A stretch of 64,000 nt of DNA from Schleiferia thermophila (GTDB taxonomy: Bacteria; Bacteroidota; Bacteroidia; Flavobacteriales; Schleiferiaceae), in contig NZ_QPJS01000003.1 of assembly GCF_003337435.1 (NCBI RefSeq), forward strand, positions 124,001 through 188,000. Reading direction: 5' to 3'. Each line of letters begins with the position of its first letter. Within the stretch, counting starts at the first letter, position 1. Below are positions 3,928-61,025 of the stretch, piece by piece. Both the position numbers and the translations under genes were made by a program. The notes below the pieces were generated by a model, which did not search any database, was not told the origin of the DNA, and saw only the letters and a program-made list of their open reading frames with translations.

Positions 3928-6711
3928 ATGTCGGAAAAATTCGCACTCTTTTTAGTCACTTTTGTATTGATTTTTTCATCCGTTTCAGCTCAAAATTCTA
4001 CCATCAAAGGCACAATAATCTCTTCTACCGACAATCAGCCCCTGCCCGGAGTCAATGTAGTAGCCCGCAAAACTGCCGACAACCGCCTGGCCGGAGCAGC
4101 CATCACAGACCCAAAAGGAAAATTTGAGCTCTCCATCCGAAAAGGACAGCAATACAAAATTCAAATTTCCTTTATAGGATACCGAAACTTTACCGTCGAA
4201 TTGCTACTAAACAAAGACACCACGCTCGGTACTATCGCACTTCGCCCCGATACCAACCTCCTCGAAGATGTAATTGTCATCGGAGAAGTCATCCCCATAC
4301 AAGTCAAAGGCGATACTACCGAATACGCAGCCGATGCATTTAAAGTAAATCCCGATGCCAGCGTAGCTGATTTGCTGAAAAAACTACCCGGCATTACCAT
4401 CGAAAACGGCCAGATTAAATCCCAAGGACAAACCATCGACCGCGTATTGGTCGACAAAGAAGAATTCTTCGGAAACGATGCCCTCAGCATCGTCCAAAAT
4501 CTACCCGCCGATATAGCCGATCGCATCCAGATTTTCGAAGAGCGCAGCGAGCAAGCCAGATTCTCCGGATTCGACGACGGCCGAGAACGACGCGTACTCA
4601 ACATCGTCACAAAAAAAGAAAAGCGATTCGGCAACTTCGGCAAACTCGAAACCGGCATAGGCACAAGCGATAGATTCGCAGCCGGCGGCAATATCAACTT
4701 CTTCCGAAACAAAGAGCGCATCTCCATCACCGGACAACACAACAACCTCAACCAACTCAATGTAGGCCAGGAAGATCCCTTGGCCGGCTCCCAGTTCCGT
4801 CGCTTCCGCCAATTTATGCCCACCGAATCAGCAGTCGACGGTATCAATACCCTCTCCACCTTCGGCCTAAACTACCAAAATAGCAGCACCCGCTGGAAGC
4901 TCACGGCAGGCTACAACTTCCGCAATAACCTAAACGACCTCGAAACCAAACGCATACGAGAAACCTTCCTCAATGAATCCACCAGTCAGTTTACCGACGA
5001 AAACCGCCTGGCACAGACCACTACCCAAAGCCATCGCTTCAACGGCAGATTCGAATACAACTTCGACTCCCTCCACTCCATAGTATTTATCCCCAATATT
5101 AGCTACAACATCACCGACCGCTTTGACTCCACCATCACCCAAACCACCATCGGAAAAGACATCCTACTCAACTCCGGCAATAACCGGCTCAACAATCGCT
5201 CCGAAACCATGGCCCTCCAAACCCAACTTATCTTCCGAAAAGCCTTCCTAAAAAAAGGACGAACCCTTTCATTAGATGCCTCCTACAACCAATCCAACAC
5301 CACGACCCTGAATCTCCTGCTGGCCAACAACATCTTTGCCCTCACCAACCCCGACACCACCTTCCGCGACCAAAAACAAGACCGCATCAACGACGCCCTC
5401 AACACCACCGCACGCCTCTCCTTTACAGAACCCCTGTCCTCTACACATTCTCTCGAATTCAACTACGCACCCGAGTACCGCATCACCCGCTCCAACCAAT
5501 ATACCGCAGCCATCACCGCCTTCGGCCAGACCGTCTACCTACCCGACACAGCACTCAGCAACGAATTCGACAACTTCATCCACACCCAAAGAACCGGCCT
5601 GAAGCACCAATACCGCAGTACCGACGAAAAAGTTACCCTCACCACAGGCCTCGACTTCGCCTATACACGCCTCTTCAGCCAGCAGCTCTTCCCCAAAACC
5701 AAAGAAATCGACCAACCCTTCCGAAACTTCTTCCCCTCCATCTTCTTCCGCTATCGCATAGGACCCCGCCAAAACTTCCGCATCAACTATACCACCACCA
5801 ATAACCTCCCCTCCGTCAGCCAGCTCCAAAACGTCATCGACAACTCAAACCCCCTGGTCCTCACCACCGGCAATCCCAACCTCCTGCAAGAATTCACACA
5901 CAACATCCGCATCGCATACGGCTTCTTCAACTTCAGCGGCAAAGGCGGCTTCATGAGCCTCTCCTACGGCCTGACCAACAATGTCATCTCCAACGTATCC
6001 AACATCCTCCTCCAGGATACCATCCTACCCGATGGAACCCCCGTCAAACGCGGCACTCAAATCATCACCCCGGAAAACCTCCCGGCACGCACCAATGCCA
6101 ACTTCTTTGGCGCCTTCAACATGCCCATCTCAAAACTCAAAATCAACCTCAGCCTCATCGGCTCCCTCGGATGGCTCCAAAACCCCTCCCGAATCAACGG
6201 AATCGACAACCGCGTCGACAACTACTCCACCAATGGCGGCATCGGCATCAGCAGCAACCTCGGAGAACGCATCGACTTCAACCTCCGCACCAACCTTACC
6301 TACTTCATCGTCACCAACCGACTCCAGCCCGAACTCAACAACAACTACTACCTCAACCTCAACTCCGCCTCAGCCACCATACTCCCCTGGAAAGGCCTCG
6401 TCCTCAATTTCGACCTCGTCCAAACCCAATACTACGGACTGGCCGACGCCATCAACCCCAACTTCATACGGCTCAACTCCTACATCGGCTACAAATTCCT
6501 CAAAAACCGCGCAGGCGAATTCCGCCTCTCCGTCTTTGACCTCCTCAACCAAAACACCAGCATCAACCGCACCGTCAGCGAACTCTTTGTTGAAGATACC
6601 CAATCCCTCGTCCTAAACCGCTTCTACCTCCTTTCCTTTATCTATCAGTTTCGCAACTACAAAGGCAACCGGGCTCCCCAACCCGCCACCCCCGACGTCA
6701 TGATGCGCTGA
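3928..6711 (+). CDS. Outer-membrane beta-barrel receptor with carboxypeptidase-regulatory-like domain
   Basis: 927 residues. A signal peptide (MSEKFALFLVTFVLIFSSVSAQ) is followed by a CarboxypepD_reg-like beta-sandwich (about 24-110, GVNVVARKT...GKFEL), a plug-like region (about 120-235, KKLPGITIENGQI, LPADIADRIQIFEERS) and a long C-terminal barrel rich in alternating aromatic/polar strands. This is the TonB-dependent receptor-like outer_membrane_beta-barrel family typical of Bacteroidota; no SusD partner lies next to it, so the substrate is unknown. Synonymous positions become extremely C-rich toward the 3' end (6301-6420: C 52, G 13), unlike sbtA upstream. This continues into the intergenic region and coincides with repeat copy A just after the stop. 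The C-richness also leaves long stop-free frames in other registers, which I regard as artefacts. Confidence 0.9.
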   Translation: MSEKFALFLVTFVLIFSSVSAQNSTIKGTIISSTDNQPLPGVNVVARKTADNRLAGAAITDPKGKFELSIRKGQQYKIQISFIGYRNFTVELLLNKDTTLGTIALRPDTNLLEDVIVIGEVIPIQVKGDTTEYAADAFKVNPDASVADLLKKLPGITIENGQIKSQGQTIDRVLVDKEEFFGNDALSIVQNLPADIADRIQIFEERSEQARFSGFDDGRERRVLNIVTKKEKRFGNFGKLETGIGTSDRFAAGGNINFFRNKERISITGQHNNLNQLNVGQEDPLAGSQFRRFRQFMPTESAVDGINTLSTFGLNYQNSSTRWKLTAGYNFRNNLNDLETKRIRETFLNESTSQFTDENRLAQTTTQSHRFNGRFEYNFDSLHSIVFIPNISYNITDRFDSTITQTTIGKDILLNSGNNRLNNRSETMALQTQLIFRKAFLKKGRTLSLDASYNQSNTTTLNLLLANNIFALTNPDTTFRDQKQDRINDALNTTARLSFTEPLSSTHSLEFNYAPEYRITRSNQYTAAITAFGQTVYLPDTALSNEFDNFIHTQRTGLKHQYRSTDEKVTLTTGLDFAYTRLFSQQLFPKTKEIDQPFRNFFPSIFFRYRIGPRQNFRINYTTTNNLPSVSQLQNVIDNSNPLVLTTGNPNLLQEFTHNIRIAYGFFNFSGKGGFMSLSYGLTNNVISNVSNILLQDTILPDGTPVKRGTQIITPENLPARTNANFFGAFNMPISKLKINLSLIGSLGWLQNPSRINGIDNRVDNYSTNGGIGISSNLGERIDFNLRTNLTYFIVTNRLQPELNNNYYLNLNSASATILPWKGLVLNFDLVQTQYYGLADAINPNFIRLNSYIGYKFLKNRAGEFRLSVFDLLNQNTSINRTVSELFVEDTQSLVLNRFYLLSFIYQFRNYKGNRAPQPATPDVMMR

Positions 6712-6740: not shown

Positions 6741-6868
6741 GGGCCGTGCCCCCTGTGGCGAGCATCGGCCTGCAGCCGAGAGCTCACCACAGGGGTCGGG
6801 CTGCTCCGGGGTACGCTTCGCTCCCGTGCTTCGCACCGCCCTTGCGGGCGCCCTCCGCATCCCTCACG
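6741..6868 (+). repeat. Dispersed structured GC-rich element, copy A
   Basis: Member of the six-copy family described in the findings. It follows a T9 tract 30 bp after the receptor stop. It opens with GGGCCGTGCC (one extra C relative to the other copies). Arm 1 is CCCCTGTGG/CCACAGGGG enclosing a smaller GAGC/GCTC and TCGGC/GCCGA hairpin. Then come the fixed core GGGGTCGGGCTGCTCCGGGG, a second arm GGTACG/CGCACC (one A-C mismatch), a GCCC/GGGC mini-hairpin, and the terminal ATCCCTCACG. Confidence 0.85.
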
Positions 6869-7578
6869 GAAGCACACAGCAAACTCCTCTTACCATCAAA
6901 CGACCATAAACCCAAATCAGCTATTAAAAAGATTTTCATGCACAATGTAAAATCCTCAATACCAGGACCAATAAGCATATGCACCTCCCTCCAAATCCTT
7001 TTATACTCAAAAGAACCAGATACCCTCCCGGAAAATCTGGACAAAAAGAGCCCACTCCTACCGACACACCACCTCGTGTACCCCATCTTAAAACCTGGAC
7101 ACATTACCCCCTCTAAGACCTGATCCCTCCAATCACCACGACCTCCAGGTCAAAATACCAAAAACCACAGCCATCAGATAACCTGAAAAACCTGCTCACC
7201 CTCCCCGTAGAAACCAAAACTTCCAACCCATCTAAGCATTCCCAATGGTGGACATAAGTCACGCAACTCAACGAACTTCGGAAGGGATATAAAAGAAGAG
7301 GACATCACCACCAAATCAGCGCAAAAAGACCGCACCATGCGAAAGCAAACCCGCAAAACCACCAGTCCATTGCAACATCCTTTTCCAAAACCAGCATCCA
7401 GACACATCACCTGAGCCAAATACAAAGCCCGTCGGCTTGAAATTTTAAATACACGGTCAACAGTTCAAATCCCTGGCGACCATCATAGACTACCTAGCCT
7501 CATTAGTCCGTATTGTGCCTTTTTTAATAGCCCAGCACCCCCCGAGTATTTTACTTTGCAATTTGAATATCTGTCCCC
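6869..7578. other. Noncoding spacer with strong C/A strand bias
   Basis: I see no credible gene in this 710-bp stretch. A hand count of 6901-7080 gives A 68, C 56, G 20, T 36, an extreme C-over-G and A-over-T bias on the plus strand, the strand on which element A reads. A motif near 7461-7482 (GTTCAAATCCC...GCGACCA) resembles the 3' part of a tRNA but has no paired T-stem or 5' half. TTACTTTG at 7551-7558 is one base off the Bacteroidota -7 motif and could belong to the promoter of the next gene. Confidence 0.6.
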
Positions 7579-23529: not shown

Positions 23530-23682
23530 CTGTGAGTGCATATGGGCAAGTGAGGCTACAGGCGGGGGCAGTGGGGTGATGTCAGATTCATTTGGGACTG
23601 CAAGAGCTTTTTTGCTGGGCTGACATATAGAGGAAGGTGGGCGGATGGTATGGGAGGGGTGATTCCATTGAGAGGGGTAGTG
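23530..23682. other. G-rich spacer left of repeat B
   Basis: No gene is visible. A hand count of 23521-23682 gives A 32, C 18, G 65, T 47, so the minus strand, on which repeat B reads, is strongly C-rich and A-rich. The 138-bp spacer right of the repeat (23807-23944) is G-rich in the same way and also shows no gene. Confidence 0.55.
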
Positions 23683-23806
23683 CGTGAGGGATGCGGAGGG
23701 CGCCTGCAGGGCGGTGCGCAGCGCAGCGGAGCACGGGAGCGAAGCGCACCCCGGAGCAGCCCGACCCCGCGCGGTAAGGCCGCAAGGCCGGCGCGGGGGC
23801 ACGCCC
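23683..23806 (-). repeat. Dispersed structured GC-rich element, copy B
   Basis: Read on the minus strand it starts at 23806 with GGGCGTGCC right after a T-rich tract. Arm 1 is CCCCGCGC/GCGCGGGG with an inner GGCC-TTGC-GGCC hairpin, then the fixed core GGGGTCGGGCTGCTCCGGGG, arm 2 GGTGCGC/GCGCACC, a GCC/GGC mini-hairpin and the end CATCCCTCACG. It lies 138 bp downstream of the M50 protease stop, on the same strand as that gene. Confidence 0.88.
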
Positions 23807-34455: not shown

Positions 34456-34669
34456 AAATTTTTTTGCTAAAGGTTTGCGTTGTGCTTTTTTCTTCTCACA
34501 ATGTCTACACAACAATCTCCGTGTAATGGGGTACGTGGATATAGAGAGGCATGGATCTGCATGGAGTGCAGCGGGTACCGGGTGGTGATGGGTTGGGTGG
34601 AGGTGTGTTGATTGGATTTTTTATGGGTGCACTATATATACGGCCCTGGAAGCTACAGAGGTTGCTCTG

Positions 34670-34790
34670 CGTGAGGGATGCGGAGGGCGCCTGCAGGGCG
34701 GTGCGCAGCACGGGAGCGAAGCGCACCCCGGAGCAGCCCGACCCCGCGCCTTACAGGAATAGTAGCAAAAGCAGGCGCGGGGGCACGCCC
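34670..34790 (-). repeat. Dispersed structured GC-rich element, copy C
   Basis: Read on the minus strand from 34790. It follows directly on the T-tract of the fasciclin-gene terminator. Arm 1 is CCCCGCGCC/GGCGCGGGG with a loop unlike the other copies, then the fixed core, arm 2 GGTGCGC/GCGCACC with the shortest loop of the family, and CATCCCTCACGC at the end. Left flank 34561-34620 counts G 29, C 4 on the plus strand. Confidence 0.88.
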
Positions 34791-42308: not shown

Positions 42309-42440
42309 GGGCGTGCCCCCGCGCGCCGGCCACCTGCCGGTAGCCTTACCGCGCGGGGTCGGGCTGCTCCGGGGTGCGCTTCGCTCCCGTGCTCCGCTGC
42401 GCTGCGCACCGCCCTGCGGGCGCCCTCCGCATCCCTCACG
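42309..42440 (+). repeat. Dispersed structured GC-rich element, copy D
   Basis: Begins GGGCGTGCC after the T-tract of the efflux terminator. Arm 1 CCCCGCGC/GCGCGGGG contains an inner CCGGC/GCCGG hairpin. The fixed core is followed by arm 2 GGTGCGC/GCGCACC with an expanded GC-rich loop, GCCC-TGC-GGGC, and CATCCCTCACGC. It is the closest to a family consensus. Confidence 0.9.
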
Positions 42441-43056
42441 CAAGTGCCGGAACCCTGCTCAACTCCCGGTGATTTCCCAAAATTCTACTCCCTGCATAGC
42501 AACCATTCTCAATCACCTACAAACTGCTCAATCGCACATCCACACACCTAATTAGAAATCAAACAGAAAAAAGAGCCAGCCGGCTTGGTTGTCCTCAGGA
42601 AGTATCGGCACAATCAGACACCCCCTCAGCCCTCCGATACATCCTGCTGCTTCAAAGGAATGTCATCAGGCAGCAGAAGACTGTATAAGCAGGAGGATAG
42701 TGCAAAGAAATATGTTGTACCAGATTTCAAAACATAAAAACCTGCACCACACACTCATCCGTATTTCTACCATTAACATTCATCAATCCAAAAAGCGAAT
42801 TGTACATATACATAAATGCCCCCTATCAATGCCGGTTTACAAGCGAAATCCGGCAGGATCTACTTCCCCAACATCGAGCTGAATGAAACATGGATATACA
42901 GTTATCCTTCTATGATTCAAACAATTAGTCCACATTGCTGCCATGAGCCACAGATAAAGCTTCAAAGTATTAACTAAATCTGAAACCGAAAGCCTGCCCT
43001 TGCCCATTCCGCAATTGGACACAATACCTAATTAACTTTGTCCAATCCCAGTAGAA
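42441..43056. other. Noncoding C/A-rich spacer right of repeat D
   Basis: I see no credible gene; short frames have random composition. A hand count of 42441-42540 gives A 28, C 37, G 12, T 23. A weak hairpin (AGCC/GGCT) with T6 on the minus strand near 42566-42585 might be a decayed terminator. The bias fades near carA, whose first codons are normal (43081-43140: G 18, C 15). Confidence 0.55.
43033..43040 (+). promoter_or_regulatory. Candidate -7 element of the carA promoter
   Basis: TAACTTTG fits TAnnTTTG and ends 16 bases before the carA ATG. A TTGG lies 15-16 bases upstream. Confidence 0.5.
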
Positions 43057-48850: not shown

Positions 48851-49099
48851 GAAAAAGTCTGTTTCGGATTGATTTGAAGGTCAAAATTTAAATTGATTGC
48901 CAGATAAACACGGTTTTTGAAGTGCCGAGATCACAAGGGAAGTCAGGTGGTTATTCGTTATTTTTTGGATGTTTGGAATTTAGAGATACAGGATTGTAGG
49001 GGTGGACTTTTTTGCCTTTTTGTCCGGGGTGTTTGGCGGTTGGCATTGAAAGTTTGAAGTTGTACATGTAAGGGTAGAGTCAAGCGCTGAGGTGCCTTG
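48851..49099. other. G/T-rich spacer left of repeat E
   Basis: No gene is seen. A hand count of 48961-49080 gives A 23, C 9, G 40, T 48; on the minus strand (the reading strand of repeat E) this is again C and A excess. Confidence 0.55.
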
Positions 49100-49221
49100 C
49101 GTGAGGGATGCGAAGGGCGCCCGCAGGGCGGTGCGCAGCACGGTAGCGAAGCGCACCCCGGAGCAGCCCGACCCCGTGCAGCACAGCAGACGATAGGAAG
49201 AAGCTGCACGGGGGCACGCCC
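49100..49221 (-). repeat. Dispersed structured GC-rich element, copy E
   Basis: Read on the minus strand from 49221, 14 bases after the nhaD stop. Arm 1 is CCCCGTGCAGC/GCTGCACGGGG, differing from copies B-D at several positions on both sides of the stem while keeping every pair. The fixed core, arm 2 GGTGCGC/GCGCACC, GCCC-TGC-GGGC and CATCCCTCACGC follow. Confidence 0.88.
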
Positions 49222-58840: not shown

Positions 58841-59031
58841 GTCATTGAGGGCCTCAGCGCCAGGGCGGTGGCGGATATGAGCCGCAGCAGGCGGGCCATG
58901 TGGCCCGCGGGCGAGGAGGCGGAGCGTCAGCAAGCCACCACAGCCCGCCGGGCCACGCCCGAGCTGCAAGGGGAATAGGAGCCGCAGACCGGCCCCCGGC
59001 CGCTCAGCGGTAGCGGCCGGGGGGGCGCCCC
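58841..59031 (-). repeat. Divergent structured element, copy G (second subfamily)
   Basis: Read on the minus strand from 59031, 46 bases after the stop of the LolC/E-like gene. It opens GGGGCGCCC, has a 12-bp arm CCCCCGGCCGCT/AGCGGCCGGGGG, a core CCGGTCTGCGGCTCC comparable to the family core, a GCGGGCCA/TGGCCCGC hairpin, and ends CACCGCCCTGGCGC...CCCTCA. Same plan as copies A-F but different sequence and about 190 bp long. The 161-bp spacer between truB and this element shows nothing recognisable. Confidence 0.65.
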
Positions 59032-59077
59032 AGTATCCAAAATTCCAGATTATACTTTGACTCTGCCAGAAGAGTGG

Positions 59078-60295
59078 CTAAATGACCCGACCGGCTATCT
59101 GCAGAATCTTTGGCAACCCGGCTACTGCTGCTGCTGTGGTGCTGAAACCGATGGCCAATACGGTAAAGCTGATCAGCAGCAGTTGTCCGGGGCGTAGCTC
59201 TACAGGATAGGCTTCAATCAGATATCCTTCGCCCAGTTGTATAAGGCCGAAGGCGTCCTGAAGCCATACGATACCTATACCCAGCAGTATGCCTATGACG
59301 ACTCCTGCCGATACGATGAGCAGTCCTGTGATGCGAAAGATACCGCTGATTTGTCCTGTGGTAAGGCCGAGAGCGCGTAGCAAGTGGATGTTGTGCCGCT
59401 TCTCGAGGATGAGCATGCGCAGCGAGCCCATGAGCCCGAAGCTGGCCAGCAGCGCGATGAAGGTAAAGATGAGGTAAACGACGAGTTTTTCGGCGCGCAT
59501 AATCTTGAAAAAGGCCTCTTGCTGCTCATCTCGGTCGTAGACGCGATGTTCTGAGAGCATTTGTCGGAGTTTGTTTTTTACGGATTTGATGTGCGCGGGA
59601 TTTTTCAGTTGTATTTCGATGGCTGAGTAGCTGTCTTCATTTCTGGTCAGCTCCCGAAGGGTGGCGATATCGGTGAGGCAGTACTTTTCATCGACCTCCG
59701 GCTGAATGGTGAAAATGCCGACGGCTTCGAGATGGCTCTGACTGAAGGCTCTCTCCGGGCGGCTGAGGCTGCGCACATCGGCCCTGGGCACAAATACCTG
59801 AAAGTACTCGCCTTCGAGCCCTGCCGAAAGACCCAGGTGATAAGCCACCCCAAGGCCTACGATGGCTGTATGGTGGCCCGGTGAGGCTTTGCCATAGAGC
59901 AGATGGGCTTCGAGGTCGTTGACCTCGAAGTAGTGTGCGTCCACACCTTTGAGGATGACCACTACTTCGCGGTCGCCTTTTTGAAGGTAGGCTTTTTCCT
60001 CCAGCACAAAACTGTATGCTTTTATCTGGTCAATCTGCCCGAGCAAAGCCGACATCGAGTCGGCACCCGTCAGGTATTTGCCGCCGGCAGGTACTACTTT
60101 CAGCTCCGGATCGAAAGCGTTGTAAAGTTGGCGCGAAAACTGCTCCAACCCGTTGAACGCACTGAGCACCACTACCAGCGCTACCGTACAAGCCACGATG
60201 CCCAGCATCGAAATCATTCCCAGTATGTTGACGGCTCCTACGGAAGTTCTGCTGCCAAAATACCGTCTGGCGATAAACCACTGTACGGACGTCAC
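59078..60295 (-). CDS. LolC/LolE-like ABC transporter permease (MacB/FtsX fold)
   Basis: 405 residues. Helix 1 with the GMISMLGIVACTVALVVVLSAFNGLE motif region (interrupted here as GMISMLGI and VVVLSAFNGLE), a periplasmic domain of about 230 residues, and three C-terminal helices of the FtsX fold (MGSLRMLILEKRHNIHLLRALG linker). It is likely the membrane part of an ABC machine that extracts lipoproteins from the inner membrane; the ATPase is encoded elsewhere. It starts 3 bp after rbfA. Confidence 0.9.
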   Translation of the reverse strand: MTSVQWFIARRYFGSRTSVGAVNILGMISMLGIVACTVALVVVLSAFNGLEQFSRQLYNAFDPELKVVPAGGKYLTGADSMSALLGQIDQIKAYSFVLEEKAYLQKGDREVVVILKGVDAHYFEVNDLEAHLLYGKASPGHHTAIVGLGVAYHLGLSAGLEGEYFQVFVPRADVRSLSRPERAFSQSHLEAVGIFTIQPEVDEKYCLTDIATLRELTRNEDSYSAIEIQLKNPAHIKSVKNKLRQMLSEHRVYDRDEQQEAFFKIMRAEKLVVYLIFTFIALLASFGLMGSLRMLILEKRHNIHLLRALGLTTGQISGIFRITGLLIVSAGVVIGILLGIGIVWLQDAFGLIQLGEGYLIEAYPVELRPGQLLLISFTVLAIGFSTTAAAVAGLPKILQIAGRVI

Positions 60296-60671: not shown

Positions 60672-60804
60672 GGGCGTGCCCCCGGCCTGAGGGAGCATTC
60701 CATACGGGCTGCTGTCCTCAGGCCGGGGTCGGTGTCCTGCGGGGTTCCGTCGCCACTGAAGCGAGTGGCGACCGCCCTGACGGGCGCCCTCCGGCCACCT
60801 CACG
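60672..60804 (+). repeat. Dispersed structured GC-rich element, copy F (divergent, inverted context)
   Basis: Reads on the plus strand, opposite to both neighbours. Arm 1 is CCCCGGCCTGAGG/CCTCAGGCCGGGG and arm 2 GTCGCCACT/AGTGGCGAC: both differ from copies A-E yet are fully paired. The core is altered to GGTCGGTGTCCTGCGGGG. GCCCTGACGGGCGCCCTCCG and CCTCACGC are kept. The 221 bp to its right hold no recognisable feature. Confidence 0.82.
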
Positions 60805-61025
60805 CAGCAAAAGTAGCATAACTCGCGCTATTTACCGGCAGCAATCTCTCCTCGCTGGTGCAGTGAACGCACTGAGTTTACCAGACGGAATCATGCAGGT
60901 AGAGGTACTGCAATATGGGTTTACTAGCCAAGTAGCTCAAATCCACTTTTTGGTGCAGGTGGTTATCTGCTGCAAGGTCTGCTGTTTTACTTAGCTGGGA
61001 CAGTGTTTGTTTGAAGTACAAAAGA

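Follow-up and report, generated by a model that had tools for sequence, protein, structure and literature searches.

The genome of Schleiferia thermophila carries a repeat of less than 200 bp that is tied to a bias doubling the silent-site content of C over several kilobases, and the sign of this bias is given by the repeat's own orientation. Here, we describe this element, starting from one copy, element G, which lies on the minus strand at 59030..58857 (174 nt, boundaries taken from the alignment of 25 copies) of the window, i.e., the whole 64,000-nucleotide stretch of contig NZ_QPJS01000003.1 under analysis. The element is a mobile-looking, non-coding and strongly folded repeat which occurs in two subfamilies, G-type and A-type. 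The compositional halo around its copies is an element-anchored, strand-specific substitution, one-sided in extent and largely T to C in the one gene where the direction of change can be read. This points to a one-way process, prone to error, which the repeat sets off again and again.

A search of the genome (2.6 Mb in 23 contigs) with G as the query gave 26 matches, 25 of them complete and one interrupted by unknown bases, with E values between 5.6e-104 and 6.8e-21, far beyond chance. The G-type copies are 172-176 bp long and 81-90% identical. A-type copies, among them those listed in the preliminary description of this DNA, measure about 125 bp and gave 40 matches; across both subfamilies the lengths span 122-176 nt. 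Both types have their ends, first hairpin and architecture in common: on the element strand a T-tract precedes GGGCG..., after which come a C-rich hairpin whose loop varies, the CGG[GT]CT core and additional arms, and the end of the element pairs with its start. The preliminary description had suggested that G may represent a second subfamily, a view that would suffer if G had neither further copies nor pairing in common with the family; we found 25 complete copies, and the terminal stem, the first hairpin and the core recur in the other copies. The proposal is thus supported, the more so as long and short forms coexist also in a second genus of the family (G001), and the 26 matches rule out a singleton or an unrelated hairpin. 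The usual position of the element is directly after a T-tract, just behind a co-oriented gene. In both types T makes up about 60-66% of the 12 bases that precede the 5' end (about 64% over the 25 G-type copies). Of 64 copies, 44 have T immediately before the element, and A immediately follows the 3' end in 52 of 62.

In order to compare the flanks, those of all copies were turned to the element strand, i.e., the strand that reads GGGCG.... Copies G26 (cut by unknown bases) and A29 were left out of the flank counts, G22 was also excluded from the skew profile, and A38 and A39 end at contig ends. At 300-500 bp upstream, the GC skew was -0.32 for the G-type (negative in 24/24) and -0.28 for the A-type (38/39), and it fades to about zero by 5-6 kb. 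The excess of C on the element strand spans about 3-4 kb of the 5' side, while the 3' side shows a much lower amplitude: downstream, strong skew is confined to the immediate vicinity of the element, and little of it is left by 0.5-1 kb. The GC content upstream is raised as well (0.54 vs. 0.45). It had been suggested that the halo marks the active type. This was not borne out, as the halo of the G-type is as strong as that of the A-type, and the relation between skew strength and copy divergence is weak and not significant (Spearman rho 0.37, p 0.07 for 25 G-type copies; 0.23, p 0.17 for 37 A-type copies). A halo restricted to an active A-type is ruled out on these two grounds.

The halo follows the element strand and not the direction of genes. 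At third codon positions 0-500 bp upstream, the frequency of C was.54 in co-oriented genes, compared to.27 far away, and.40 in anti-oriented genes, compared to.23 far away on the same strand; downstream it was.35 and.32, respectively. The bias carries on into anti-oriented genes that lie behind a co-oriented first gene (.33 vs..23), and intergenic DNA also carries the halo. At 38 control gene ends without an element, the frequency of C was.26. The anti-oriented genes and these element-free ends rule out an effect of codon usage or of gene ends. Since both element orientations alternate along the contigs, replichore skew is not the source of the sign of the halo. Moreover, the sign is identical on both sides of the element, which argues for one strand-continuous event over a resected break. 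Symmetric break resection, under which the sign should flip across the element, was therefore rejected; so was a replication-fork barrier, which predicts a halo at only half of the copies, while a halo accompanies nearly all of them, whichever way they are oriented. Transcription and replication are known to leave the leading or coding strand rich in G and T and the opposite strand rich in C and A; the halo differs from such asymmetry in that a small repeat, and not replichore or gene direction, determines where it lies and which sign it has.

The bases that give way to C bear on two further explanations. At upstream third positions T, G and A all fall, A from.27 to.20 and G from.17 to.12 on the element strand, while C doubles. 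Four-fold sites reach a C frequency of.62 and.44, compared to.29 in far genes (gene strand), with no strong preference for neighbouring bases (odds ratios of 3.3-5.3 in all eight contexts). The element could be an orientation-dependent recombination hotspot of the Chi kind, the halo then being a bias of repair or gene conversion; the one-sided decay over a few kilobases indeed resembles Chi activity. However, GC-biased conversion would raise G and C alike, contrary to the fall in G, and we regard the idea as very improbable. Alternatively, the complementary strand might often be single-stranded around the element (an R-loop or a displaced strand) and be deaminated chemically or enzymatically, and a change of T to C on the element strand does correspond to A to G on the complement. 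The spontaneous form, however, favours C to T on the complement, which would raise A on the element strand, where A falls; in addition, GC content rises and a strong sequence context is lacking. We consider this explanation unlikely, too.

Element G itself seemed at first to be an exception. The preliminary description had called the flank skew of G and of copy F weak, and its count at 59401-59460 (G 21, C 18) is exact. Copy F (60672..60806, plus strand) is a divergent A-type copy with its 5' end at the start of rbfA. It faces G at a distance of 1.6 kb, and rbfA and a gene for an FtsX-like permease (59078..60295, minus strand, co-oriented with G) lie on the 5' side of both elements, the permease gene within both halos. 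The skew of G is weak because the opposite-sign halos of G and F overlap. Opposing halos cancel in skew but raise the GC content, and the third positions of the permease gene are indeed rich in both bases (GC.64; C.38, G.25, T.155). In G001 and in another relative, G019, the rbfA-permease order is kept, the element is absent, and the third-position C of the permease gene is.19 and.22. We polarised synonymous changes at sites where both relatives agree. On the way to the S. thermophila permease gene, T changed to C 13 times and C to T never (p 0.0002). Changes of A to G outnumbered those of G to A (8 vs. 3), which is the direction predicted by the halo of F, but not significantly (p 0.23). Thus, the weak skew stands as a raw measure and not as lack of a halo: the permease gene is clearly shifted in comparison to its element-free orthologues, and G has a halo that is hidden in the raw skew. 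On the other side of G lies truB, whose G001 orthologue has no element behind it. Of the three facing pairs, G/F and G03/A24 have one or both copies weak or reversed, and A07 and A11 are both below average.

The second genus allowed the same genes to be compared with and without the element. In G001 the profile is one-sided in the same way, and between 300 and 2000 bp every bin is negative in all 17 copies. Among 50 reciprocal best pairs between S. thermophila and G001, three genes of one operon have an element behind them in G001, where their third-position C is.53,.44 and.38; in S. thermophila, where A19 lies on their other side and faces them, the same genes have a third-position G of.39,.43 and.51. 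In other pairs the bias is lost where the element is absent. The effect varies between copies, and some G001 genes near an element show little bias (C.31 at 10 bp, locus L271). These comparisons bear on the reverse order of cause and effect, i.e., a preference of the element for insertion beside DNA in which one strand is already rich in C, or after genes whose codons tend to end in C, with which the co-oriented gene before 24 of the 25 G-type copies would agree. However, anti-oriented genes and intergenic DNA show the halo too, control gene ends show nothing, element-free orthologues are at base composition, and one operon is oppositely biased in two genera with opposite elements. We find this order of events exceedingly improbable, and the operon together with the element-free orthologues rules out a halo that is merely pre-existing composition. 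Further away, a weak halo of like shape is seen over 122 copies of other genomes, with 30 to 116 of them in each bin: the upstream skew is -0.03 to -0.06 to about 3 kb and zero beyond, and the downstream skew is -0.09 and -0.07 in the first 0.5 kb and close to zero past 1 kb. The bias is thus seen in two genera and faintly across phyla, and a local, sequence-addressed mutation bias could be tested in cultivable bacteria.

What process could leave such a trace? Our preferred reading, to which we assign a probability of roughly 0.4 from sequence comparison, is an orientation-dependent, unidirectional process from the element, most likely nick-primed, strand-displacing synthesis that escapes mismatch correction. 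The fold would be recognised in one orientation, and the process would begin at the element, or immediately 3' of it, and run a few kilobases towards the element's 5' side. Nick-primed DNA synthesis would copy the complementary strand, and a G placed opposite T and left uncorrected would be fixed as T to C on the element strand. Copying of the element itself would proceed the same way, with the halo as read-through. We favour such synthesis because the direction, the length, the rising GC content and the lack of a strong base context fit it.

Another candidate is antisense transcription, driven by the element or by the DNA just 3' of it for 3-4 kb towards the 5' side, in which A to G changes on the non-template strand would appear as T to C on the element strand. 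It would account for the direction, the length, the equal sign on both sides and the G/T excess of the would-be transcript strand, and would require no special DNA enzyme. Against it, such transcription must oppose most upstream operons and cross opposite genes, transcription asymmetries of other genomes are much smaller, and no promoter-like conserved block was identified, though no test was aimed at one. On balance we think it less likely than nick-primed synthesis.

Several points weigh against nick-primed synthesis. Antisense transcription could equally be the process, and fits nearly as well. Synthesis beginning exactly at the element would not be expected to leave the lower-amplitude halo on the 3' side, and the halo is weak in other lineages (the upstream skew of -0.03 to -0.06 given above). 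At four-fold sites C gains at the expense of each of the other three bases; these sites are saturated in S. thermophila and G001, and the elementary mutation is unreadable there. The transposition, nicking and RNA steps are proposed from the comparison of sequences. A matching enzyme has not come to light either: the S. thermophila genome, which was searched for the families RVT_1, Y1 and Y2, has no match to the reverse transcriptase domain RVT_1 (PF00078), and neither it nor G001 or G019 has a Y2 transposase. Its single Y1 (IS200-like) transposase gene is flanked by other palindromes, AACGATTAAAATCGTT. Near 120 loci of other genomes we found no recurrent gene and no Y1 homologue. The Y1 gene (L140, 1880-2730; contig C1, about 430.4-431.2 kb) has several of the AACGATTAAAATCGTT palindromes around it.

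The largest recurrent clusters of open reading frames near the 120 loci comprise 5-6 loci and look ordinary. The lack of a recurrent neighbour at these loci speaks against a linked partner gene; the enzyme does not seem to be encoded next to the element. Reverse-transcriptase copying was discarded as S. thermophila has no RVT_1. IS91 rolling-circle parents were discarded likewise, as there is no Y2 transposase and no element motif around IS91-like genes (three loci). If the process is initiation of DNA synthesis, its enzyme remains to be found; if it is antisense transcription, views on how strong transcription-linked mutation is in bacteria would need revision. It is possible, though doubtful, that a widespread class of small folded repeats in Bacteroidota and neighbouring phyla provides orientation-specific origins of short, unidirectional, error-prone chromosomal DNA synthesis, with permanent zones of directed, strand-specific hypermutation on their 5' side. 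If this were true, each copy would influence which codons are used and how proteins evolve, and a genome would have dozens of such loci. In any case, annotation inside halos needs care, as they create spurious long frames and mimic foreign DNA. Long spurious open frames do occur inside halos (window 5981-6616; L140, 2791-4089), where one strand is poor in stop codons.

The fold of the element is supported because compensatory changes exceed the shuffle expectation. In the alignment of the 25 complete G-type copies, a six-helix structure pairs 97.7% of cells; it was derived from the same alignment, towards which this figure leans, and the double changes are the stronger evidence: 13 pairs are altered on both sides, whereas shuffles gave 3.9 and slid controls 2-3. 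On the minus strand, starting at 59031, copy G opens with GGGGCGCCC, has a perfect 12-bp hairpin arm (CCCCCGGCCGCT / AGCGGCCGGGGG) and the core CCGGTCTGCGGCTCC, and further on reads GCCCTGGCGC and then CCCTCA, just as previously described. The alignment of all copies places the 3' terminus at ...GCCCTGGCGC, so that CCCTCA belongs to the flank of copy G and lies outside the element, whose ends are GGGCG at 59030 (5') and GGCGC at 58857 (3'). The 5' strand of the terminal stem P1 (59024..59028, minus strand; approximate, one column being gapped in copy G) pairs with its 3' strand, GGCGC (58857..58861, minus strand). Hairpin P2 (58993..59023, minus strand) has 12-bp arms with compensatory changes and a variable loop. 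Next comes the core with the small hairpin P3, GCCGGTCTGCGGC (58981..58993, minus strand), which is the counterpart of GGGTCGGGCT in the wider superfamily; the first base of P3 can also close P2. The long imperfect arm (58887..58967, minus strand, ends approximate) holds helices 4 and 5, in which 10 of 27 pairs are changed on both sides. As the preliminary description stated, G follows a co-oriented gene; the stop of the FtsX-like permease gene is separated from it by a spacer of 47 nt (59031..59077, minus strand).

Such a fold raises the question of whether the element is mainly an RNA feature, e.g., a stabiliser of 3' untranslated regions or a small RNA, with the halo unrelated to it. The strong fold with its covariation and the position behind genes would suit this. 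However, 12 of the 39 A-type copies have an anti-oriented upstream gene, and stem mismatches show no excess of G-U (7) over A-C (11; hand count, with the end-of-stem pair excluded). In addition, the covariance models of Rfam 15 gave no match to the element, and the halo would be left unexplained; we judge this explanation very unlikely.

The terminal stem also bears on the relation between the subfamilies. It reads GCGCC/GGCGC in the G-type, GCGCA/TGCGC in one G copy (G24) and GCGTG/CACGC in the long relatives, and the A-type has the ends of the latter, GCGTG...CACGC. One P1 pair is C-G in the G-type, A-T in G24 and T-A in the relatives, in which the next pair, read by eye from the ends, is G-C. 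The second genus, G001, has short A-like copies and, in addition, long copies resembling G, in which the 3' end is still that of the A-type, TATCCCTCACGC. Since these long relatives retain the 3' end found in the A-type, the G-type ends (GGGCGCC...GGCGC) look like a derived, base-pair-compensated variant, and G would be a derived branch rather than the older relative that had been considered as an alternative. Of the features of the superfamily, G has the 5' GGGCG, the C-rich hairpin P2, the core [TC]CGG[GT]CT and the closing terminal stem; the G-type ends CCGCCCTGGCGC in place of ATCCCTMACGC. The superfamily pattern, GGGCGTK-CCC-hairpin-GGGTCGGGCT...ATCCCTMACGC, is present in Bacteroidota, Spirochaetota and Fibrobacter. 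Its long form was found in at least 120 stretches of named genomes, and among the matches listed (80 of at least 120) most are from Bacteroidota, the others from Spirochaetota (including a Treponema metagenome-assembled genome, MAG), Fibrobacter and one MAG labelled Bacilli. The occurrence is patchy: the long pattern was seen in 5 of 395 sampled genomes of the phylum and the short one in 4 of 60 of the family. The phages and plasmids searched gave no match to the element. The long-form pattern occurs in six IMG/VR viral contigs (L290-L295). Flavobacterial copies (L157, L160, L230, L250 and others) contain another repeat, AACGTCATTGCGAGG...GCAATCT, inside their variable arm.

We compared the element with known systems. 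Many-copy folded repeats are a known kind; the substitution halo around each copy we regard as new in kind. Integron attC sites have RYYYAAC...GTTRRRY ends and an integrase; by this definition, the ends of the element are in the opposite order in its commonest form (GTT first, AAC last). Group IIC introns insert behind T-tracts or terminators, as does the element, and diversity-generating retroelements cause local directed sequence change. The element is, however, far too short for either, and RVT_1 is absent from the genome. One-ended, unidirectional displacement synthesis of the IS91/Helitron kind would be expected to give such a halo, but the three genomes lack Y2 and the three IS91-like loci have no element motifs. 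Miniature inverted-repeat transposable elements (MITEs) share with our repeat the short pairing ends (GCGYN...NRCGC), the many copies, the patchy distribution and sites after T-tracts, and the stem P1 corresponds to their terminal inverted repeats. As for the other marks of MITEs, no target duplication is evident by eye (there being no alignable empty site), and no autonomous partner recurs at the 120 loci or emerged from the S. thermophila genome within the three enzyme families named above. Unlike in MITEs, most of the length of our repeat is conserved structure.

Repetitive extragenic palindromes (REPs), including the BIME and REPIN forms, with RAYT (IS200-like Y1) transposases, are likewise dispersed, non-coding, palindromic, intergenic, often located behind genes, and conserved in their single-strand fold. 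We know of no multi-kilobase substitution halo around REPs. REPs measure 20-40 bp and carry GTAG or CGTC tags (PMC3733652), while the element has 122-176 nt and several arms (172-176 nt and six helices in the G-type). A Y1 gene flanked by the repeat itself, as in REP-RAYT systems, was not seen here: the flanking palindromes are AACGATTAAAATCGTT, with a single copy of a third element subtype nearby. The FopS small RNAs of Bacteroides, also a multicopy structured non-coding family in Bacteroidota, are paralogous, 65-70 nt long and present in 14 copies (PMC11697453), and are set apart from the element by this description only. In the literature searched, which included PMC3733652, PMC12306157 and PMC11697453 but few subscription papers, neither the repeat family nor an orientation-specific multi-kilobase halo is described.

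Besides F, the window contains five A-type copies, at 6741..6869 and 42309..42441 on the plus strand and at 23682..23806, 34669..34790 and 49099..49221 on the minus strand. With a mean identity of 0.62, copy F diverges more than any other A-type copy, and its 5' end abuts the start codon region of rbfA in anti orientation. Contigs C2 and C6 of S. thermophila end inside A-type copies; assembly may break at elements, in which case the copy number is underestimated. G17, G22 and G26 (contig C1, about 140-145 kb, L105) have a common upstream flank, as if gene and element had been tandemly duplicated, and the array is interrupted by unknown bases. The third, shorter subtype (about 80 nt) lies behind phoH, beside the only IS200-like gene, and its 3' end runs into one palindrome.
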